In this document: positions 40,890-51,061 of the stretch, in pieces
Position numbering within the stretch: the first letter of the stretch is position 1
Layout: the number at the start of each line of letters is the position of its first letter
Assembly: GCA_031315865.1 (NCBI GenBank)
Contig: JALDRJ010000002.1
Location: 2,020,001 to 2,084,000 of the forward strand
Direction of reading: 5' to 3'
Length of the DNA: 64,000 nt
DNA from: Nitrospirales bacterium
Lineage (GTDB): Bacteria; Nitrospirota; Nitrospiria; Nitrospirales; UBA8639
Position numbers and translations under genes: made by a program
Notes under the pieces: model-generated
The model's database searches: none
Seen by the model: only the letters and a program-made list of their open reading frames with translations
What the model was told of the DNA's origin: nothing

Positions 40890-42275
40890 TCAGTTCTGCA
40901 GGATTCTTACGAGCTTCTTGCGTTTCTTGCCTTTTCCGAATTTCCCCATACCCATCCGTCCGCCCGCGAGGGTTTTCATCATTCTGCGAGCTTCCAAGAA
41001 TTGTTTGATGAGACGATTGACTTCCTGAACCGTAGTGCCACTGCCCCGGGAAATTCGTTTTTTCCGGTTACCGTTGATGATGGTATGGTCGCGACGCTCT
41101 TTGGGGGTCATGGAGTCGATAATCGCGACGACGCGTTTAATTTCCTTTTCAGGCAGTCCTCCCTGGGTTTGTTCCGCCACCATGGACTTAATCTTTTGAC
41201 CACCCGGCAACATGTCGAGAATCTGATCAAACGACCCCATTTTATTGACCTGCTGGATCTGGTCGCGAAAGTCTTCCAGTGTGAGCGTGTTGCTCGTGAC
41301 CTTGCGTTGAAGCGTTTCCGCCTGCTCTTTGGAAAAATTTTCCTGAGCTTTTTCGATCAAGGTGAGGACATCGCCCATGCCCAATATTCTGGATGCCATC
41401 CGGTCGGGATAAAATGGCTCCAACGCATCAAGTTTTTCACCGACTCCCAGGAACTTGATCGGTTTCCCCGTCGCGGATCGGATGGAGAGGACCGCGCCAC
41501 CACGTGCATCACCCTCGACTTTTGTCAGGATGACGCCATTCAAGCCAATCACTTGGTCAAATCGTTCGGCGACGGCGACGGCTTCCTGTCCGGTCATGGA
41601 ATCAGCGACCAGGAGTGTCTCCTGAGGAGCGACCGCCTGTTTGATATCCACGAGCTCCTGCATCAGTTCATCATCGATATGCAGTCGGCCGCCAGTATCT
41701 AAAATGACGACTTCGTACCCATGTTCTTTGGCTCGAGCGACACCATCCCGACAAGTCTGGACGGCGTTGGCATCAGGCCGGCCTTCCTGATCTCCACGAT
41801 GGACCTGGATTTCAAGGTCTTGCCCTAATGAAGCCAATTGTTCTCCGGCTGCGGGACGGCGGGGATCGGCAGCGACAAGAAGCACTCGTTTGCCTTGCGT
41901 CTTAAAATGGTTCGCCAGCTTCCCGGTTGAGGTGGTCTTCCCTGAGCCCTGGAGTCCGACCATCATAATAATGGTTGGCGGGGTGGATGAAAGATGCAGT
42001 TCTGCTTGGTCTTTGCCCAGTAGGTCCCGTAGCTCTTCCCATACGATCTTGACCACCTGTTGAGCAGGGTCGAGACCCTTGAAGACTTCCTGACCTACGG
42101 CTTTCTCTCTAATGTTCTCGATGAACTGTTTAACGATTTTGAAGTTGACATCGGCTTCCAGGAGGGCGAGGCGAACCTCTTTCAGCGCATCGGTGATATT
42201 CTGTTCAGAGAGAACAGCTTGGCCACGCAACTGTTTGAAAACGCTATCGATTTTTTCAGTTAAGGAACCAAACAT
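40890..42275 (-). CDS. ffh: Signal recognition particle protein Ffh
   Basis: GTPase that binds signal peptides and 4.5S RNA and delivers ribosomes to the membrane. 461 residues: N domain (1-85), G domain with GLQGSGKTTSTGKLA, DTGGRLHIDDELM and TKVEGDARGG, and a C-terminal M domain with the RNA-binding SRGSGTTVQEVNRLIKQF and a Met/Gly/Lys-rich end. It leads the operon that continues to yraN. Confidence 0.95.
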   Translation of the reverse strand: MFGSLTEKIDSVFKQLRGQAVLSEQNITDALKEVRLALLEADVNFKIVKQFIENIREKAVGQEVFKGLDPAQQVVKIVWEELRDLLGKDQAELHLSSTPPTIIMMVGLQGSGKTTSTGKLANHFKTQGKRVLLVAADPRRPAAGEQLASLGQDLEIQVHRGDQEGRPDANAVQTCRDGVARAKEHGYEVVILDTGGRLHIDDELMQELVDIKQAVAPQETLLVADSMTGQEAVAVAERFDQVIGLNGVILTKVEGDARGGAVLSIRSATGKPIKFLGVGEKLDALEPFYPDRMASRILGMGDVLTLIEKAQENFSKEQAETLQRKVTSNTLTLEDFRDQIQQVNKMGSFDQILDMLPGGQKIKSMVAEQTQGGLPEKEIKRVVAIIDSMTPKERRDHTIINGNRKKRISRGSGTTVQEVNRLIKQFLEARRMMKTLAGGRMGMGKFGKGKKRKKLVRILQN

Positions 42276-42596
42276 AACATTACGATCCTATCCACTCATT
42301 TTTTTCAACACAAACGAGATAGTCTAGTAAAGACAATAGGGGGAGTCAAGTAAACCATTTCAAGATATAATGCCTAGGTATTTCATCGTGGCCTGTTCAG
42401 AACTTCCTCGCGACTTGTCTCTTACATTCTTCATCCAAAATTGACCGCTGAATGGGATATGAACATGTCCCGATTTGTGTAAAGCCAAAACGGACGTGTC
42501 ATTGTTACAATCATGCCAACATCTTTACTTGGTAGGTAGGTCAAGCGTAGCGCACAATCTCAAGTCACCACGAAGGTTCGTGATGAAGGAAATGTG
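42276..42596. other. Divergent intergenic region, ffh and response regulator
   Basis: About 320 bases. A dyad gggatat-gaac-atgtccc at 42454-42471 could bind a regulator, and aagatataatgcc near 42363 resembles a -10 box. No gene or RNA seen; no 4.5S RNA here. Confidence 0.4.
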
Positions 42597-44018
42597 ATGA
42601 AGGCGAAGGTTCTTGTCGTAGACGACGATGAAGATGCGAATATCTTACTGCAACAGCGGTTAGAACTGTTGGGGTACGATTCAATTTCCGTCTTTGATGG
42701 CGCACGGGCTCTTGAAAAGATTCAAGAGGAATCACCGGAGGTTGTGTTACTGGACCTGGAATTGCCTACCTACTCTGGGATCGATGTTCTTCGACGGCTC
42801 CGCGATCGTGTCAAGCTGCCGGGCGCCTCGCCTTTGGGCTCCTCGGCTGGCTACCAGCTGGTTCCCCCTTTCATCATCGTGATGACGGCACATGGATCGA
42901 TCGACAATGCGGTAGAAGCCATGAAATGCGGGGCCTATGATTTTTTGACGAAACCATTTGACTTTGATCACCTGGAGTTAGTGATGCAACGGGTCCTCGA
43001 ACGAGAAGCGTTGAGCAAAGAGGTGAAATACCTTCGTCAGGAAATCAATCACCGCTATGCCAATATCGTGGGGAAGAGTCAGAAAATGACCGCTGTGTTG
43101 AGAATGGCGGAACAAGTCGCACGGTCACGAGAAACGGTCTTGTTGTTAGGGGAGACGGGTACTGGTAAAGATATCCTGGCTCGCACGATCCACCGTTGGA
43201 GCGTACAGAGCCATGGCCCATTTATGGCGGTGAATTGTTCCGCGTTTCCGGAGACCCTGTTGGAGAATGAGTTGTTTGGTCACGAAAAAGGGGCGTTTAC
43301 CGGGGCGAATGAAATGAAAGCAGGGAAGATTGAGGCGGCCGATGGCGGCACCGTCTTTCTGGACGAAATTGGAGACATGCCGATCCATCTTCAAGGTCGT
43401 CTCTTGCGATTGCTACAAGACCACGAGTTTCATCGGGTTGGCGGGACGAAGTCCATCAAGGTCAATGTCCGGTTTATTGCCGCAACCAACAAAGATTTGC
43501 AACAAGGGATCGCCCATGGAACATTTCGTGAAGATCTGTTTTTCCGCCTGAATATACTTCCGATTACGCTCCCGCCACTGCGAGAGCGGATGGAGGACAT
43601 CCCGGACCTCGCTCAATATTTTGTGGTACGACATTGCCGGCACACGAGACAACCGAGCAAAACGCTCACGTCCTGCGCCCTTGAGGCCATGATGCATTAC
43701 CATTGGCCCGGCAATATTCGGGAACTGGAAAGTGTGCTCGCACGGGCCGTGATCTTGAGTGCTGATGAAAACATTACCGAAGAAAACTTGCGGTTGGAGA
43801 ATAAGGCTCATCAAGTGAAAGAACTCCGGACCGTTCAGGATGGGAACATTCCTCCGCTGAAAGAGTCCCTTGATCGGCACAGTCGGTTTTTACTCATTCA
43901 AGCGCTGACCAAAACGGGTTGGAATCAAAGTAAGGCTGCTGAAATCTTACACATCCATCGATCGTACCTCGTCCGACTCATCAAGCGACTTGGAATTTCA
44001 TCCGCTGGTCCGTCGTAA
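42597..44018 (+). CDS. Sigma-54-dependent response regulator (NtrC family)
   Basis: 473 residues. Receiver domain (1-135) with DDDED acidic pocket, phospho-Asp in VVLLDLELPT and Lys in FLTKPFD; an extra stretch of roughly 16 residues (VKLPGASPLGSSAGYQLVPP) sits between helix 3 and strand 4. The AAA domain has GETGTGKD, the sigma-54 contact GAFTGA (HEKGAFTGANE), GGTVFLDEIGDMP and FFRLNILPI. A Fis-type helix-turn-helix ends the protein (GWNQSKAAEILHIHRSYLVRLIKRLG). The ATG at 42597 follows AAGGA. No kinase is adjacent; the large hybrid kinase at 58 kb is a distant candidate. Confidence 0.92.
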   Translation: MKAKVLVVDDDEDANILLQQRLELLGYDSISVFDGARALEKIQEESPEVVLLDLELPTYSGIDVLRRLRDRVKLPGASPLGSSAGYQLVPPFIIVMTAHGSIDNAVEAMKCGAYDFLTKPFDFDHLELVMQRVLEREALSKEVKYLRQEINHRYANIVGKSQKMTAVLRMAEQVARSRETVLLLGETGTGKDILARTIHRWSVQSHGPFMAVNCSAFPETLLENELFGHEKGAFTGANEMKAGKIEAADGGTVFLDEIGDMPIHLQGRLLRLLQDHEFHRVGGTKSIKVNVRFIAATNKDLQQGIAHGTFREDLFFRLNILPITLPPLRERMEDIPDLAQYFVVRHCRHTRQPSKTLTSCALEAMMHYHWPGNIRELESVLARAVILSADENITEENLRLENKAHQVKELRTVQDGNIPPLKESLDRHSRFLLIQALTKTGWNQSKAAEILHIHRSYLVRLIKRLGISSAGPS

Positions 44019-44279
44019 CCTCCTTGGCTTCCTCGCAATTCACCGATCGAATTCGCAGTTCGTTTAAAGATCGAAAGTGGAGTAATGCTCGATTGTTTCC
44101 TGCCGGCAGAATAAAAGTTGCTGTCTCAATTTAGGTCATGCTTTCAATGTTTAACGTGTGATGATTTAGGACAACCGCTCCCTTGCCCTTCCTTTTCACT
44201 CAACTCGTTTTGTGAAAATCCTTATTAGAATCCACTAGTTCTCCTCCACTTCCGACTTGGTGTTTTACGCCATAGGCGA

Positions 44280-44295
44280 CGGCATTCATGTTGCT
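44280..44295 (+). promoter_or_regulatory. Sigma-54 type (-24/-12) promoter
   Basis: CGGCATTCATGTTGCT agrees with the consensus TGGCAC-N5-TTGCA: the invariant GG (44281-44282) and GC (44293-44294) are exactly 10 bases apart, and 8 of the 10 consensus bases outside the spacer match. Transcription would start near 44306, about 300 bases before the speD-like gene. A gene for a sigma-54 activator ends 260 bases upstream. Confidence 0.55.
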
Positions 44296-44414
44296 ATTTC
44301 CTAGTGACAAGGGAATTCACGAAAGCCAATTTCAATCACAATAGCGAACCAACTTCCACCCGATTCAAGGCAACTTACACAGCGTAAAACACGACTTCAC
44401 ACATTCGGAGGTTA

Positions 44415-44435
44415 ATGGGAATGGCCATAGCATAA
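44415..44435 (+). CDS. Possible 6-codon leader frame
   Basis: ATG at 44415 follows GGAGG with 3 bases between; a second in-frame ATG (44421) has better spacing. It reads MGMAIA and stops. Too short to be judged; mentioned because two further tiny frames follow it before the speD-like gene. Confidence 0.15.
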   Translation: MGMAIA

Positions 44436-44446
44436 GAGGTGACGAT

Positions 44447-44503
44447 GTGAGGCCTGGTTTCTTGGAACCATTTGTATGCATTGATGAACCATACTTTTCG
44501 TGA
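44447..44503 (+). CDS. Possible 18-residue leader peptide
   Basis: GTG at 44447 follows GAGGTGACGAT, a good ribosome site. The peptide MRPGFLEPFVCIDEPYFS ends in TGATG, which overlaps the start of the next short frame. It might be part of a translational control leader. Confidence 0.2.
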   Translation: MRPGFLEPFVCIDEPYFS

Positions 44504-44592
44504 TGACGACAGACGGTCTGAACTTCATGCTCATCTCAAAATTATCCAAGAGGCACAGGATGGATGTCGGTCTTTGGAGTAATTTGGTTTAG
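44503..44592 (+). CDS. Possible 29-residue leader peptide
   Basis: ATG at 44503 overlaps the preceding stop (TGATG). The peptide starts MTTDGLNFMLISKLSKRHR and its TAG stop lies 17 bases before the speD-like start, next to that gene's ribosome site, so its translation could affect speD expression. Confidence 0.22.
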   Translation: MTTDGLNFMLISKLSKRHRMDVGLWSNLV

Positions 44593-44609
44593 GAAAGGAA
44601 CTCGATCAC

Positions 44610-45005
44610 ATGGACATGTGTACGTTTGGAGAACATCTCACGATTGACGGATATGGCGGTGAGTTCATGTTTTTAAATGACCGGGATCTCGTGGAGCATT
44701 GCCTTCGCGAACTACCTCTCTTGCTCTACATGCACCCCTTGATGCCTCCTGCCGTACAGTGGGCTCAGCCCGATGATCTCAACGATCCAGGCGGATGGAG
44801 TGGGTATGTGTTGATCGCGGACAGTCATATCAGTCTTCATACGTTCCCTCATCGCCGGTTTTTGAACGCGAGCATCTATACCTGTCGGAATGGAACGAAC
44901 ATGGATCGGGTCATTCATTACTTCACAGAAAAATTCTGCCTGACGGATACGGAAACCCGATTCACCAAGCGTGGAGCCAAGTCTCCGGTTCGCAATGGTG
45001 TATGA
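44610..45005 (+). CDS. speD: SpeD-like pyruvoyl decarboxylase (AdoMet decarboxylase family)
   Basis: 131-residue short-form member of the S-adenosylmethionine decarboxylase family, which cuts itself to make a pyruvoyl cofactor. Motifs: FGEHLTIDGYGG at the start, DSHISLHTFP with the self-cleavage serine, and SIYTCRNG with the catalytic cysteine. Two differences from ordinary SpeD are seen: Asp instead of Glu before the Ser-His, and His-Arg-Arg after the HTFP where a Glu is usual. No spermidine synthase is adjacent. It could decarboxylate AdoMet or, like some diverged SpeD proteins, ornithine or arginine. Confidence 0.78.
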   Translation: MDMCTFGEHLTIDGYGGEFMFLNDRDLVEHCLRELPLLLYMHPLMPPAVQWAQPDDLNDPGGWSGYVLIADSHISLHTFPHRRFLNASIYTCRNGTNMDRVIHYFTEKFCLTDTETRFTKRGAKSPVRNGV

Positions 45006-45112
45006 ACATGAAGAGCATAGATGTGAGCGGGAGTGTTGAAGGGAAGATACGGGTGAACCATTTAAGCGTTCATCTAGACATACATCTCAAAAGGAACATC
45101 ACTCACAATTGA
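45002..45112 (+). CDS. Possible 36-residue protein overlapping the speD-like stop
   Basis: ATG at 45002 overlaps the TGA of the speD-like gene (ATGA) and the frame reads MNMKSIDVSGSVEGKIRV to a stop after 36 codons. There is no signal peptide and no ribosome site of its own, so it would depend on coupled translation. Low support. Confidence 0.25.
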   Translation: MNMKSIDVSGSVEGKIRVNHLSVHLDIHLKRNITHN

Positions 45113-45188
45113 AGTCATGATTCTGATGCGTGTTTTTCTGTCCCATGCATCATGAAGCGACATTGTGGACAGAGGAAGGAGATCTATC

Positions 45189-45656
45189 ATGGGTATTTCA
45201 ATTCAACAACAATCTCAGACAAAAATTTTGAGGCCTTCTTTTCTAGATGAATCAGCGCGAAGGTGGAGAATGATAGGCCTTTTGGGTCTTTCGCTGTGTG
45301 CCACGCTGGCTTTATCTGGCCAAGCGAGCGCTGGAGTGGGATGCGATCTGAATGTGCGCGTGAATAATCACACGAAGAATTCGATCACCGTGTATGGGGC
45401 TGCTCACAGCGGGGCGAGTAAAACCGGCTTGAATATTTGGGCTCCCCTTCAAGGAATGGTTGATACCGTTTTAGACCCGAAAGATTCGGGATCGGCATCA
45501 CATACCAAACAGGCTGTTGAATTGCAGCTGCCTTGTTGGACTGGAAAGGTTGACTTTCGAATTCGATATCTCGACGGGTCTCATGCCAAATGGATGCGTC
45601 GCGATGCCGTCAAGATCAAAAATGGCCAAACCGTCCAGATTAACATCAAGAATTAA
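45189..45656 (+). CDS. Exported protein, paralogue of the next gene
   Basis: 155 residues with a signal peptide (MIGLLGLSLCATLALSGQASAG). The mature part begins GVGCDLNVRVNNHTKNSITVYG and ends NIKN; two cysteines (GCDL and LPCW) may form one disulphide. The pattern GCxL...N...KSITV, a tryptophan, a late cysteine and a basic-aromatic segment are shared with the following gene, so they are paralogues. No known family recognised. The ATG has AAGGAG in front. Confidence 0.68.
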   Translation: MGISIQQQSQTKILRPSFLDESARRWRMIGLLGLSLCATLALSGQASAGVGCDLNVRVNNHTKNSITVYGAAHSGASKTGLNIWAPLQGMVDTVLDPKDSGSASHTKQAVELQLPCWTGKVDFRIRYLDGSHAKWMRRDAVKIKNGQTVQINIKN

Positions 45657-45721
45657 ACAGCTTGATGGAATTCACCATGGAGAGAGTTTCACTCATGCGA
45701 AATATGCAAGGAGGATACGTC

Positions 45722-46144
45722 ATGAATACGTGCAATCGATTTCGGACGCGAGAACGTCGTCGTTGGTTCACATGGAATGCAGGGAAGGCCTTGCAGCTTT
45801 CCGGTCTCTGTGCATCCGTAATGATTGGGAGCATGGTAGCGGGAGGACACGCCTTGGCGGGTTGTGGTCTGACTCTTCAATTCGACAATGATTTGAGCAA
45901 ATCCATCACGGTACTGAACATTGAGTCCAAGACGTCGACGGGTAAGTGGAAGTCAGTGTATGGCGAGGACTTCACGGTGAAGTCTGGCAAGAAGGTCTCG
46001 AAGGCGATCGAGACGAATGCGTCTTGCATGATGCCGCATCATTTACGGGTGAAATACGAACAGGGGAAGAGCACGCTGTATAAAACCAAAGGGCCCTTAG
46101 GGACGGCGGTCGACAAGAAGTACACGTTTGAGTTTGATGACTAA
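45722..46144 (+). CDS. Exported protein, paralogue of the preceding gene
   Basis: 140 residues. The ATG at 45722 follows AAGGAGGATACGTC; an upstream open frame is not needed. After a basic start with RRRW there is a signal peptide ending AGGHALA, then GCGLTLQFDNDLSKSITVLN, much like GCDLNVRVNNHTKNSITV of the previous protein, and a second cysteine in NASCMMPHH. Both may be small beta-sandwich proteins with a disulphide, made in the oxidising periplasm or outside. Function unknown. Confidence 0.68.
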   Translation: MNTCNRFRTRERRRWFTWNAGKALQLSGLCASVMIGSMVAGGHALAGCGLTLQFDNDLSKSITVLNIESKTSTGKWKSVYGEDFTVKSGKKVSKAIETNASCMMPHHLRVKYEQGKSTLYKTKGPLGTAVDKKYTFEFDD

Positions 46145-46271
46145 CCATCACCAGGCGTTGATGCCATGGTGAGTGTGGGGTGGAAGCCCTCATGAACGTG
46201 TCATCCGATACTTTCCCTTGTCCAATTCGGATGACACAACATTACCGGACAGGGGATACAGGGAGGTAACC

Positions 46272-46931
46272 ATGAGTATACTTCATCACAGACCATCAAC
46301 TATTTTCAGTCGAAACATCAGTGTTCTGGGGCTGGCCGCTTGTCTGCTCAGCGCGTCCGTCGTGCAGGCTGGGACGAAATGCTATGACTTTAGCCAGCCT
46401 CCCGTCGGTACGGAATACCACATAGGCGATACGCTTAACCTCAGACACTCAGTCATTAATGTACGACCATTAGTGAACCGGGATGGGCCAGCGAGCAATG
46501 ACTCGGCGGTCGCGGAGATCCATGCGGGTAATCTTCCTCAGGGAGGGGCTCCTTCATTGCGAATGAGTTCCATCGTGGCGCAAGTGATTCCCAATAAGCT
46601 GGTGAAGACGATGACACTGAAGTTTGCTCAAAACCTTGGGAGCGATCCTTCGAAGCGCATCGTCAATATTGGCGTTAACGGGCAGAGCCTCTCATTGAAT
46701 GGGTCTCTTGACCGGGCCGATGGCAAGGTGTTGGGTAAGGCTGATAAGGGAGGAAAGGTTCGTATATCCGTTCAAGCGACACCTGATGGTGGCGATAGTT
46801 ATTGGGTTCGCGGGACGGTCACTTTAACCTCAGCTTCACCGCTTCCCTTGCCTCAGAAAGGCATCAAGCAGTTTTCGTTCGGGGCCTCCACCCAATTGTT
46901 TATCGATGATGTGTGTATGACGGAGAAATAG
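46272..46931 (+). CDS. Exported protein, function unknown
   Basis: 219 residues. A signal peptide (NISVLGLAACLLSASVVQAG) precedes a mature part with cysteines only near the ends (TKCYDFSQ and DDVCMTEK), suggesting one long-range disulphide. The body is rich in Ser, Gly, Val, Asp and Lys with alternating beta-strand pattern (LVKTMTLKFAQNLG, VRISVQATPDGG, SYWVRGTVTLTSA, TQLFIDDVC), like a jelly roll. ATG at 46272 follows GGGAGGTAACC. Closed by a double hairpin. Confidence 0.65.
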   Translation: MSILHHRPSTIFSRNISVLGLAACLLSASVVQAGTKCYDFSQPPVGTEYHIGDTLNLRHSVINVRPLVNRDGPASNDSAVAEIHAGNLPQGGAPSLRMSSIVAQVIPNKLVKTMTLKFAQNLGSDPSKRIVNIGVNGQSLSLNGSLDRADGKVLGKADKGGKVRISVQATPDGGDSYWVRGTVTLTSASPLPLPQKGIKQFSFGASTQLFIDDVCMTEK

Positions 46932-46947
46932 ATTCCTGTTCGGCGGA

Positions 46948-47000
46948 GTCCACGTTTCGCTCGGGCGCGAAACGTGGACGGTGTCGTCGGTCGACGACAC
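46948..47000 (+). terminator. Two tandem hairpins ending the exported-protein cluster
   Basis: First: gtccacgtttcgc (46948-46960) pairs perfectly with gcgaaacgtggac (46967-46979), a 13-bp stem with 6-base loop. Second: gtgtcgtcg (46981-46989) and cgacgacac (46992-47000) follow at once and are followed by attttc. A strong double stop after the stop codon at 46931. Confidence 0.75.
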
Positions 47001-47171
47001 ATTTTCCCGTGCCATGCTCAAACAAGATATGGAAATGCGCTTGTTGCCTTTTTCACTGAGCTTTCTCGTTCGTGTATTTTTCTACGGCACCATTTCCGGA
47101 TATGATACAGTCCCTTCCTCTCTCGAATGATCTATACGGTTCGAGTCAGTCTCTGAAAAAGGAGCGTTTGT

Positions 47172-48023
47172 ATGATGACTCGTGTATTGCATTACATTGT
47201 TGCGGCGCTGCTGTGTATTCCCTCCGCGGGTATTTCTGTTGTTAAAGCCCAGTCTCCGGAATCGTTTCTGGCAGAGGGTTCCTCGAGGTCCAGCCTGATC
47301 GCAGCCGTGAGATCCGTGCTTCGGGAACATCCCGAACTGATCCTTGACGCCTTAGAGAAAGATCCGGTGGCGTTGGCTGATCTTGTTGAGCGGGCTTCAA
47401 TCGCCAAAACTTTTCAGGTCGAACAGGAGAGACGGCTGGATGAGCTCAAACACCCGAAGATTCCCGCCGTTGACCTGAACCGCCCGATCCGTGGAAACCC
47501 GGAGGCTTCGATCACGATCGTAGAGTATAGCGACTTCGAATGTCCCTTCTGCCGCTCGGCATCCTCCACCGTGAAACAAGTCCTGGAACAATACGGAGAT
47601 GAGGTTCGATTCGTGTATAAACACAACGCATTGAACTTTCATCCCATGGCTGAGCCTGCCGCACGATACTTTGAGGCCATTGCCTTGCAAGACACAGATG
47701 AGGCTTGGCGTTTTCATGATCTTGTCTTCGATCAACAGGACCTGCTCGCAGATGGGGAGGCGGTCTTGAAAGCCATCCTGGCGACATTACAGGTTAATCA
47801 GGAACAGGTAGTCCGAGACCTGAACGGAGACATGGTTGAACAACGTCTGAGCCTTGACCGAGACGAAGTGGCTCGTTTTGGTTTTGATGGAACGCCGGCT
47901 TTCCTGATCAATGGCGTGTCATTGATGGGAAGTCAACCGATGGAAGATTTCGAAGACATCATCCGGATGTTTATCGATGACAGCCAAGGCGTAGAACATG
48001 TTGAGGTCGAACATGAAAAGTAG
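47172..48023 (+). CDS. Exported DsbA-family thiol oxidoreductase
   Basis: 283 residues. Signal peptide (VAALLCIPSAGISVVKA), a helical stretch of about 75 residues (SLIAAVRSVLREHPELILDALEKDPVAL...), then a DsbA-type thioredoxin domain with active site CPFC (Cys124 and Cys127 in SDFECPFCRSA) and the cis-Pro loop FDGTPAFLING. It would form or shuffle disulphides in exported proteins. It sits between genes for exported proteins with cysteine pairs and a cysteine-rich protein, which fits such a role. AAGGAG precedes the ATG. Confidence 0.87.
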   Translation: MMTRVLHYIVAALLCIPSAGISVVKAQSPESFLAEGSSRSSLIAAVRSVLREHPELILDALEKDPVALADLVERASIAKTFQVEQERRLDELKHPKIPAVDLNRPIRGNPEASITIVEYSDFECPFCRSASSTVKQVLEQYGDEVRFVYKHNALNFHPMAEPAARYFEAIALQDTDEAWRFHDLVFDQQDLLADGEAVLKAILATLQVNQEQVVRDLNGDMVEQRLSLDRDEVARFGFDGTPAFLINGVSLMGSQPMEDFEDIIRMFIDDSQGVEHVEVEHEK

Positions 48024-48110
48024 GGGTAACGTGGCCCTAGCTTCAGTCTCTCGTGAATATCAGACATGGCCGCTCGCAGTGAAACGATAAACCCAGAAAT
48101 GGAGTTGAAG

Positions 48111-49070
48111 ATGGAATTGAGAACATGGTTGACGATATCTATGGTCCTATTATGTGTTCTCTCGTGGCATAGCCACGGTTTTGCCGCCGATAAAATCACC
48201 AATTGTTCTGCAAACCAAGAAGCGGCGCTGCAAAACGCGAACGAGTACATTTCCGATCATCTGAATAACTTTCTCGCGACGAAAGCAGGATTTTTGCCAA
48301 CCAAATATAAGGACAAGTTAAAGAAGAATTGGCCGAAGACGACGCTGAAGTGTTCGAACGCCGATGACTATTGCGCTAAAAAGGGGTTTGCCGCCTTTCA
48401 AAATGTGGGAAAAGTCTTGAGATATTGCACGAAAGAGTTTGATCTGACGACCGCCAGTCTTTGCCGGGTTGCTGCGCTGACCATGCATGAATTAGGACAT
48501 TCCGCTGGAATTCCCATCCATGCTCGACATAATCATGCCGATCTGTACGGTTCAGTGGCCTCGGGCGATGCCGATTTGGTGTATCGGCTAGGCAATGAAT
48601 TTCGATCGTACTGCGACAATAATCCTGGCACGAGCCCGTCCGTCACTCAAGCAAGTGGTGGTCCGATCGGAGCGACGTGTCAGAAGAATGAAGACTGCCG
48701 TTCGAAGAAATGTCAGGGAACGGGGAGCGTCCGAGAATGCGTATGCGCGAAAGATGGAGACTGCGGAAGCGCGGCCCGCTGTAAAAAACGATTGGGGAAA
48801 AATTACTGCCTTGCCAAAGGTACGGGCCCCGGGGATTTTTGTAAAAAGAACAGTGATTGTCACATCGGCGTCTGTCAGAAGAAAAGCTGTGTGTGTAAAA
48901 CGGATGATCATTGCAGGAGCTTTTATGTTGGGATTACCGATATTCGATGTGTCAATCGCGTCGGCAAGAATTTTTGCCAAGAGACAAACCAAGACCTGGG
49001 TGAGTCGTGCCAGAAGGATTCTGATTGTCGCGGTTCGTTGAAATGTAAAAAGAAGCAGTGCAGCAGTTGA
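48111..49070 (+). CDS. Exported HExxH metallopeptidase-like protein with cysteine-rich repeats
   Basis: 319 residues from the ATG at 48111 (GGAG six bases before). A signal peptide ends SHGFAA. The first half carries HELGH at residues 126-130, followed by SAGIPIHARHNH, which supplies further histidines 7-12 residues on; this resembles the metzincin pattern HExxHxxGxxH with one residue more. Four cysteines lie in this half. The second half holds three cysteine-rich repeats of the type C-x-K-(N/D)-x-D-C-(R/H) (GATCQKNEDCRSKKC, GDFCKKNSDCHIGVC, ESCQKDSDCRGSLKC), as in exported proteins of predatory or social bacteria. Probably a secreted protease of unknown target. Confidence 0.7.
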   Translation: MELRTWLTISMVLLCVLSWHSHGFAADKITNCSANQEAALQNANEYISDHLNNFLATKAGFLPTKYKDKLKKNWPKTTLKCSNADDYCAKKGFAAFQNVGKVLRYCTKEFDLTTASLCRVAALTMHELGHSAGIPIHARHNHADLYGSVASGDADLVYRLGNEFRSYCDNNPGTSPSVTQASGGPIGATCQKNEDCRSKKCQGTGSVRECVCAKDGDCGSAARCKKRLGKNYCLAKGTGPGDFCKKNSDCHIGVCQKKSCVCKTDDHCRSFYVGITDIRCVNRVGKNFCQETNQDLGESCQKDSDCRGSLKCKKKQCSS

Positions 49071-49264
49071 CCGATTCTATTCTTCTAGGAGGGCACTTCC
49101 GCTGTTAGTAAGATATTTTACTGTTCCCACTAGCGGCGGTATAGCCATTTCAGTACTACCGAAACGATACAGCAACCTCCTGTACGCTTTGGTTCTTCAA
49201 GACGTGAGAGAAACATCAACGTGTGTCAGGGTATCCAGGTGGGTATCACCTTCCGCTTGTGATG

Positions 49265-49330
49265 ACGTCGTACCGCGCGGGAGTTGTCGCATGTATCGAC
49301 TGGAACGTATGTGAATTCGTTATAATAATC
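49265..49330 (+). repeat. 66-bp direct repeat, copy 1 (carries promoter-like TATAAT)
   Basis: acgtcgtaccgcgcggg... matches the segment at 50018-50083 at 55 of 66 positions. This copy ends in TATAATAATC; the perfect -10 box at 49321-49326 is only 8 bases before the ATG of the next gene. Confidence 0.7.
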
Positions 49331-49333
49331 GTG

Positions 49334-50002
49334 ATGCGATTTTCCGGTGAGAGTTCGCAGGACGCAAGCGAGTACGTGTCTCCGGGAGTTGAGTTAGGAG
49401 CGGTCGTCCTGACGGGGCTTTTGCATGTTGTGTTTCAAGGCCCTGAGAGCAAGGGGGCATTTATCGCATTGGCCAGCGTGAGCTGGGTGAGTTATATCGG
49501 GTGGCGAGTGAGGCAGGCCCCAGGACTCTGGAGACACTGGGGATTCCGATCCGATAATCTGAAGGCGTCATTTTTCATTCCCAGTATTGCCTTTGTTTTA
49601 TCAATGGGAGGCATGGCGGTCTGGGGCTGGTTCTCCGGCCATGACTTGTGGAATGAGCACCTCATTCCATTATGCCTGTTGTATCCGATCTGGGGCGTGC
49701 TGCAGCAATTTTTGGTTCAGGCCTTGGGGGTTTTGAATATTCAGAAGCTTTTCCCCAATGTCGGAGTGCGCTCAGTGGTGCTGCTTGGAGCCTGTCTGTT
49801 CTCCCTCGTTCATTACCCACAGGGATGGTTGATGCTGGCGACTTGGGTCTTGGGCCTGGTCTTCATTCCTTGTTATCTCCGGCACCGAAATCTTTGGCCT
49901 TTGGGTTTGTACCATGGGTGGCTCGGTACCTTCTTCTATCTCTGGGTTTTAGGTCAAGATCCGTGGGATTTGGCTTTTGGGGCCTATAGCCGTTTCAAAT
50001 AA
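49334..50002 (+). CDS. CPBP-like membrane protein without the glutamate pair
   Basis: 222 residues with about six membrane helices and the overall plan of the CPBP (Abi) family of membrane proteases. The place of the EExxxR motif reads GVLQQFLVQALG, with glutamines instead of glutamates, while later SLVHYP and YHGWLG carry histidines at the family positions. Proteolysis is therefore doubtful. The start at 49334 is chosen because the TATAAT box is directly upstream, which would make the mRNA leaderless; a GTG frame to 49223 is possible. Flanked by the 66-bp direct repeat. Confidence 0.6.
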   Translation: MRFSGESSQDASEYVSPGVELGAVVLTGLLHVVFQGPESKGAFIALASVSWVSYIGWRVRQAPGLWRHWGFRSDNLKASFFIPSIAFVLSMGGMAVWGWFSGHDLWNEHLIPLCLLYPIWGVLQQFLVQALGVLNIQKLFPNVGVRSVVLLGACLFSLVHYPQGWLMLATWVLGLVFIPCYLRHRNLWPLGLYHGWLGTFFYLWVLGQDPWDLAFGAYSRFK

Positions 50003-50218: not shown

Positions 50219-51061
50219 TTAGCCGGAAGTTTTAGCTTGTGATTCTGTCTGGTTGGGAGTTTCCCGATGATTGGGATCCCTAAGGGCTTCATAGGCAGTT
50301 TTGATCTGTTCGGTACCATAGGTCCGTTCCAGGCGCCGCACGGTAAAGTGACCGCGTGCGATGTCTTGAAAATGGTTGATGAAGAGTAGGTTAATCGTCG
50401 CTCCTCCCGCCGCTCCGATGATCGGAATGGCTTGAGCAGCCGCCTTTTCGGAAACTTGGATACTGTAGCGGGTGGCGATTTGCGTGACGAGACGAACCAG
50501 GCCGGGAGCTCCGGTTTCCGCCATGCCACGTTCGGTGATGTATTTGGCAGCTTCCGTGACCGCCGCCCCGAGTGCGGTTCGAACGGCAAAGTAGCCTGTC
50601 TCGGAGCCGTCATCGTTTTGAGTCGGTCCTCCAAGTGCGAAGACCTCGAGGCAAGACAGCTTGGTCTCGACATCAAGAATGTTTTCCCCTTCGCTCCGTG
50701 CAATATCCGCGATAGACCGAAGCATGATGGTGGTCGAGATGGGCAGTTCGACCGCCAGGCCTCCCAGTCCGAATGCCCCGCCTAACGCGCCGCTGATCGA
50801 CGTGAAAACTTTGTGGGCTGTGTTCGATGCCTCTCCCGCATGCTGATAGTTCAGGGTGGCGACAGCGACGTCTAGTGCACGGGACAGGGCCCCTTTAGTA
50901 GAGGTCATCAACTTTTCGGACCAATTGTCCGGAAGAACGGCGAGGGCTTTTTCGACGGGTGTACCGATTAGATTCGTTACTTTGGCTGCAAAACTTGGAC
51001 TTTCCAAGAGCAGATATGCTCGTTCAAGCGCTTCTTGGTCTTCAACGCTAAGCGTCGTCAT
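50219..51061 (-). CDS. EcsC-family protein
   Basis: 280 residues of the EcsC family, named after a Bacillus gene next to the EcsAB exporter; the role is not known. The sequence shows helical stretches with GGAFGLGGLAVELPISTTIMLRSIADIARSEGENI (the family core), and later GAAGGATINLLFINHFQDIARGHFTVRRLERTYG. No signal peptide; a hydrophobic core might touch the membrane. AAAGGA precedes the ATG. It stands alone. Confidence 0.82.
   Translation of the reverse strand: MTTLSVEDQEALERAYLLLESPSFAAKVTNLIGTPVEKALAVLPDNWSEKLMTSTKGALSRALDVAVATLNYQHAGEASNTAHKVFTSISGALGGAFGLGGLAVELPISTTIMLRSIADIARSEGENILDVETKLSCLEVFALGGPTQNDDGSETGYFAVRTALGAAVTEAAKYITERGMAETGAPGLVRLVTQIATRYSIQVSEKAAAQAIPIIGAAGGATINLLFINHFQDIARGHFTVRRLERTYGTEQIKTAYEALRDPNHRETPNQTESQAKTSG

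Follow-up and report, generated by a model that had tools for sequence, protein, structure and literature searches.

Recurrent pairing of DsbA-type genes with exported enzymes bearing cysteine-rich, Dickkopf-like tails in Nitrospirota

Which of the exported proteins encoded around a DsbA-type oxidoreductase gene does that enzyme serve? The question is raised by a run of five genes in a Nitrospirales bacterium (NCBI GenBank assembly GCA_031315865.1, contig JALDRJ010000002.1; a genome of 3.78 Mb in 2 contigs, labelled G000 in the comparisons), found in a stretch of 64,000 nucleotides (positions 2,020,001 to 2,084,000) that was analysed as a whole and is referred to as the window. Three small exported proteins (P1, P2 and P3) are followed there by the DsbA-type enzyme and by a cysteine-rich protein with an HExxH motif (HX). 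A first-pass annotation of this DNA had read them as a single cluster on one strand, each gene with a strong ribosome site, and had considered it plausible that an oxidoreductase is reserved there for secreted products with disulphide bonds. The five open reading frames (ORFs) are all present on the plus strand (Table 1); ribosome sites of the AAGGAG/GGGAGG type are strong before P1, P2, P3 and the DsbA gene, and the site is moderate before HX, whose ORF opens at 48066 in the ORF list and more likely starts at 48111. The idea of a dedicated enzyme is supported for the cysteine-rich HExxH protein but not for P1-P3: the five genes probably form two side-by-side units, P1-P2-P3 and DsbA-HX, in the second of which DsbA would make or sort the disulphides of the HX tail.

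The evidence carrying this reading is the gene order in relatives, for which the searches covered Nitrospirota. Genes encoding a tail of the HX type (tailed genes) were collected without using DsbA, by three overlapping searches: with the HX sequence (found in 8 of 97 relatives), with an HX profile (9 of 395 phylum genomes) and with the Pfam family Dickkopf_N, PF04706 (9/395). Their union comprises 15 genomes (G000, G003, G012, G018, G022, G032, G072, G074, G092, G249, G310, G329, G375, G380 and G408), and each of the 15 has a DsbA-type gene on the same strand immediately next to its tailed gene or series of tailed genes. DsbA comes before the tailed genes in 13 of them and after HX in G072 and G249, a short opposite-strand ORF between the two genes of G072 being judged spurious; tail fragments starting at contig ends (G032:C153, G380:C49) were not counted as separate clusters. 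Under one criterion, a cysteine-rich ORF lies within reach at 12 of the 15 linked loci, the other three failing because their stretches end before the tail, vs 1 of 26 unlinked DsbA loci used as control; in the window, HX is the sole ORF of this kind among 65 non-overlapping ones. If the tailed gene encodes the substrate, the two would constitute a dedicated DsbA-substrate pair, with the enzyme gene beside that of its substrate in 15/15 genomes. A genus-wide search with PF04706 (79 genomes), made for fresh test material, returned six already-known genomes only, and a contig scan with close-relative patterns found one locus, from which absence elsewhere is not claimed. The sole control hit, which itself speaks for the link, was a DsbA-B paralogue of G092; its neighbour is an exported protein with 14 Cys that shares 43% identity over 169 residues with a protein encoded just upstream of the G003 DsbA. 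The two are members of a further exported family rich in Cys (17 and 14 Cys, repeats of CKKxCR type; L072 5108-5659, L046 213-728), which adjoins DsbA genes of two different lineages (G003, G092).

As first described, HX is a cysteine-rich HExxH protein, with 27 Cys in 319 residues. H126, E127, H130 and H140 (HExxHx9H) are invariant in the seven HX proteins of six genomes, and H140, ten residues past the second His of HExxH, is likely the third zinc ligand. Using an AlphaFold model (three sequences; predicted template modelling score, pTM, 0.53), the four top-ranking VIA matches of the HX domain are all M35 metallopeptidases, the group of deuterolysin, GfMEP and AsaP1 (Z 7.4, 7.3, 7.3 and 6.4; root-mean-square deviation 3.9-4.4 Å over 128-136 residues of a model with a predicted local distance difference test score, pLDDT, of 65.7), with which it shares HExxH. 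Members of M35 differ from HX in their motif, which we take to be GTxDxxYG with Asp as third ligand: it is absent from HX, and PI...H140 stands at that spacing in 7/7 HX proteins, placing an invariant His where the third ligand would be expected. Five HX members gave no match to Pfam M35 up to E 10, and a search of the PDB with the HX sequence returned nothing below 0.049. Since both the motif and a Pfam match are absent, HX is named M35-like and not M35.

The tail, in turn, has the N-terminal region of Dkk4 as its closest solved structure in Foldseek, weakly (E 0.25). The tails of relatives match Dickkopf_N with E-values of 5.6e-17, 3.9e-17, 3e-14 and 1.3e-14, passing the cut-off (25) in proteins of L076, L077, L132 and L134 and reaching 20.7 bits in the G092 relative; they differ from known Dickkopf_N domains in being bacterial, repeated and fused to hydrolases. 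The domains preceding the tail are varied, including M35-like (HX), PF00144 beta-lactamase-like (4.8e-46), M43/M12-like HExxH (subthreshold) and M23 (3.4e-11), and further tailed proteins carry N-terminal parts of no identified type. At L132, L133 and L134, one DsbA gene is followed by operons encoding a trio of Dickkopf-tailed proteins: an M43/M12-like one, an M23 one and an untyped one of 650-680 residues. In G003, the two HX genes flank a gene for a protein with RTX calcium-binding repeats (PF00353, 7.6e-39; L072 7766-8215).

The pairing also recurs with different DsbA lineages. In a 39-row DsbA tree (INDEPENDENCE), three groups contain the 15 linked rows. Lineage A comprises G000, G003 and five genomes of genus g12, with the unlinked G001 within; lineage B holds G072, G092, G249 and G329, with unlinked paralogues around them; lineage C consists of four genomes of g9. 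Five label changes are needed on this tree, its starred branches force three, and a single change is seen in 0% of 200 bootstrap trees. The partner of HX is a lineage A enzyme in the genus of the window (G000 and G003) and a lineage B enzyme in g12 (G072, G092, G249 and G329). One and the same g12 site is occupied either by DsbA-A with tailed genes (G074, G310, G375, G380) or by HX with DsbA-B (G072, G249); it adjoins the gene of a conserved 568-residue protein and, except in G249, also that of a LuxR-type regulator. This regulator, with two helix-turn-helix-like matches (L132 3455-4705, L074 9651-10901, L080 7836-9083), is encoded next to the DsbA cassette of G001 and of several g12 genomes, and is a candidate for its control.

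These sites bear directly on whether DsbA and HX are partners at all. The interval between the ffh-like and Rce1-like genes could be a hotspot for accessory genes, in which DsbA and HX would be neighbours by inheritance. The region between the ffh-like and sigma-54 regulator genes on one side and the Rce1-like and EcsC genes on the other does vary in the genus: it measures 5.2 kb in G000 and ~28 kb in G003, differs in content in G001, and in G002, where the contig covers the right side only, holds P1, P3 and three further genes; moreover, P1-P3 resemble accessory cargo. However, the DsbA-tail pairing is found at unrelated sites (a sucCD-like neighbourhood in g9, several g12 sites) and with three DsbA lineages, which makes mere hitch-hiking an unlikely account of it.

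Should the enzyme then be taken to serve P1, P2 and P3 as well, all five proteins acting together? All are exported and encoded on the same strand, P1-P3 have exactly two cysteines each after the predicted signal peptide (assigned by eye), and in G003 a P3 gene shares the variable region with DsbA-HX, ~11 kb downstream of DsbA. Against this, P3 and DsbA are 240 nt apart, with two perfect inverted repeats (13 and 9 bp) side by side in the spacer, and the 99 nt around them, as RNA, are more stable than 200/200 shuffles (z -3.11); the fold of the 87-nt DsbA-HX gap is unremarkable (z 0.57). Scattering in relatives, away from DsbA, had been named at the outset as the observation that would tell against the cluster, and it is what is seen for the small proteins: pairs of them occur without a neighbouring DsbA in G002 (P1-P3), G011 (P2 and a P3 copy) and G040 (P1-P2, at a contig end), three genomes in which window-type DsbA was not found (best matches E 3.7e-11 to 3e-12), whereas the Cys-rich protein is linked in 15/15. 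Proteins with one disulphide, furthermore, rarely need a private enzyme. One joint functional cluster is therefore improbable, and a single five-gene operon was rejected for P1-P3 on account of the double hairpin and of those relatives. The genome has a single copy of the hairpin pattern, which ruled out a dispersed repeat; between 44000 and 50500 no known RNA element reached its gathering score, and a consensus promoter and terminator scan gave nothing above shuffles and was uninformative.

Among 97 relatives, and counting the window genome, P1 is found in three genomes, P2 in three and P3 in five. P1 and P2 are paralogues as first proposed, but distant ones (BLASTP 27% identity, E 3e-5, in an alignment that takes in part of the signal peptides; profile-profile comparison E 1.5e-6, probability 90), and P3 is by eye unrelated to either. 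The earlier statement that the small proteins lack a known family is upheld, none of the three exceeding a Pfam or NCBIfam cut-off; a DUF5388 match to P1 (19.1 bits vs a cut-off of 26.1) was taken as chance. Sequence searches of P1-P3 against solved structures gave no convincing match. The predicted structure of P1 is a six-stranded sandwich (pLDDT 61.6), and no function was assigned from it because Foldseek and VIA match it to numerous unrelated Ig-like sandwiches (the C-terminal domain of cyclodextrin glycosyltransferase, HGSNAT, CBM41). Our best guess, of low confidence and leaning on this model, is that P1-P3 may be small secreted beta-sandwich binding proteins; they fit as accessory cargo of the variable region. 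A plasmid search found no match for P1 or HX. The P3 copy of G011 (L034) contains stop codons (2 TAG and 1 TAA) and a DsbA match of G072 (G072:C4:173040-173681) spans a TAA; gene decay is possible in both.

The window DsbA scores far above the Pfam cut-offs for DSBA (66.0 vs 25.6 bits) and Thioredoxin_4 (70.3 vs 23.2), and C124, C127 and the cis-Pro T241-P242 are invariant in 9/9 sequences of alignment A5. A role as regulator or secretion partner of HX (for instance, keeping it inactive until export) rather than mainly as foldase of the tail is very improbable: several of the paired hydrolases might need periplasmic restraint, but an invariant CXXC and cis-Pro are as expected of a catalyst, and what the clients have in common is the Cys tail rather than the enzyme. 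A weak ScsC_N-like stretch at the N-terminus (E 0.0052) leaves a trimeric isomerase possible, to judge from sequence; the L132 DsbA likewise has a weak ScsC_N match. G000 contains a sole VKOR gene (C2:1464286) and a sole DsbD_TM gene (C2:2099531, ~31 kb from DsbA, the nearest), so that a source of oxidation and one of reduction are both present. Tests for VKOR in 10 genomes were positive in 6, and four g12 genomes had none.

The best explanation is that DsbA is a dedicated foldase with the Cys-rich tail as its putative client, and it recurs beside tailed secreted enzymes probably because it folds the tail. The first unit would supply three small exported proteins with one disulphide staple each; the second, an exported M35-like zinc metallopeptidase with its tail and its own DsbA-type foldase. 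HX would leave the cytoplasm via Sec, unfolded and with its cysteines reduced, and meet outside it the co-encoded DsbA, which would make or sort the dense disulphides of the tail. DsbA could be re-oxidised by the VKOR of the genome or, if an isomerase, be kept reduced via a CcdA/DsbD-type protein. The folded tail may confer protease resistance and/or attachment, with the N-terminal enzyme working outside the cytoplasm; whether DsbA acts as oxidase or isomerase, what the tail is for and what the enzymes target are matters we infer. A broader proposal, to which we give somewhat under an even chance, is a portable Nitrospirales exoenzyme cassette: the Dickkopf-like tail would be a general client and anchoring module grafted onto various hydrolases (M35-like, M43/M12-like, M23, beta-lactamase-like), always with an available DsbA lineage, and exchangeable as a block at one site.

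Several points weigh against the DsbA-tail reading. In G001, the equivalent locus carries a DsbA of the window type but nothing Cys-rich beside it, and the control stretches were not length-matched to the linked loci. The count of 15 genomes overstates the number of independent events; about three lineages are supported by the tree, which carries a long-branch warning. Regarding HX, PF04706 remains below cut-off in the protein itself, with no listed match in the window protein; its model is middling, and residues 138-152, which include the third putative ligand, have pLDDT < 50. The M35 assignment is a lead, given that poorly modelled segment and a best Z below 8. Finally, the double hairpin has no proper U-tract (four U only), and the consensus scan called no terminator there.

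Two known systems invite comparison. DsbL is a DsbA homologue whose native substrate AssT (arylsulphate sulphotransferase) needs it for folding (PMC6067686). DsbL/DsbI-AssT is likewise an accessory DsbA homologue with its own substrate; it differs in having one substrate enzyme, against a shared tail family on different enzymes and three DsbA lineages here, where moreover no VKOR or DsbD_TM membrane re-oxidant gene adjoins DsbA in G000 (DsbB was not searched for). ScsC of Proteus mirabilis is a trimeric disulphide isomerase that requires its N-terminal residues to be so (PMC5524982). The window DsbA is also a thioredoxin-fold CXXC enzyme, and its ScsC_N-like stretch lies before the catalytic domain; the likeness is one of sequence, at 16.9 bits vs a Pfam cut-off of 25.8, and a further difference is that no copper-resistance genes were seen in the 42-52 kb stretch examined. 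With respect to the DsbL/AssT idea, a dedicated DsbA paired with a Cys-rich tail on different enzymes would be a new variant, and a literature search returned no description of bacterial Dickkopf-like proteins associated with DsbA. A few single substrates are known to have disulphide enzymes of their own; here a tail family on unrelated hydrolases accompanies three DsbA lineages. Were the tail the client, selection could act on disulphide supply as one component of an exoenzyme cassette, and the DsbAs borne on such cassettes could serve in predicting or producing bacterial proteins dense in Cys. These genes also suggest a secreted hydrolytic arsenal in a group whose nitrogen metabolism has been the main object of study.

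Table 1. The five genes, the double hairpin and the genes bordering the variable region (window positions).
Feature	Position	Strand	Description
P1	45189..45656	+	Exported, 155 aa; mature Cys pair C52/C116; low-confidence predicted beta-sandwich
P2	45722..46144	+	Exported, 140 aa; mature Cys pair C48/C102; distant paralogue of P1
P3	46272..46931	+	Exported, 219 aa; C37 and C215 near both mature ends; no Pfam/NCBIfam family
Double hairpin	46948..47000	+	13-bp stem 46948-46979; 9-bp inverted repeat 46981-47000; terminator-like
DsbA-type oxidoreductase	47172..48023	+	Thioredoxin fold, signal peptide, CPFC active site, GTPAF cis-Pro motif
HX	48111..49070	+	Exported; M35-like metallopeptidase domain, then Dickkopf-like Cys-rich tail, ~residues 190-319
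Rce1-like (CAAX-protease-like) membrane protein	49223..50002	+	Right anchor of variable region; conserved in G001, G002, G003
EcsC	50219-51061	-	Right anchor with Rce1-like gene; conserved in G001, G002, G003
Signal-recognition GTPase-like gene (presumably ffh-like)	40890-42275	-	Left anchor of variable region; beside regulator in G003 too
Sigma-54 response regulator	42594-44018	+	Left anchor; adjoins GTPase-like gene in G003 too

Upstream of P1, on the same strand, the window also has an S-adenosylmethionine decarboxylase gene (PF02675, 44610-45005), with no homologue in the neighbouring maps examined. The variable region is full of exported proteins, in the window (44018-49223) as well as in L080, L138-L139 and L069.

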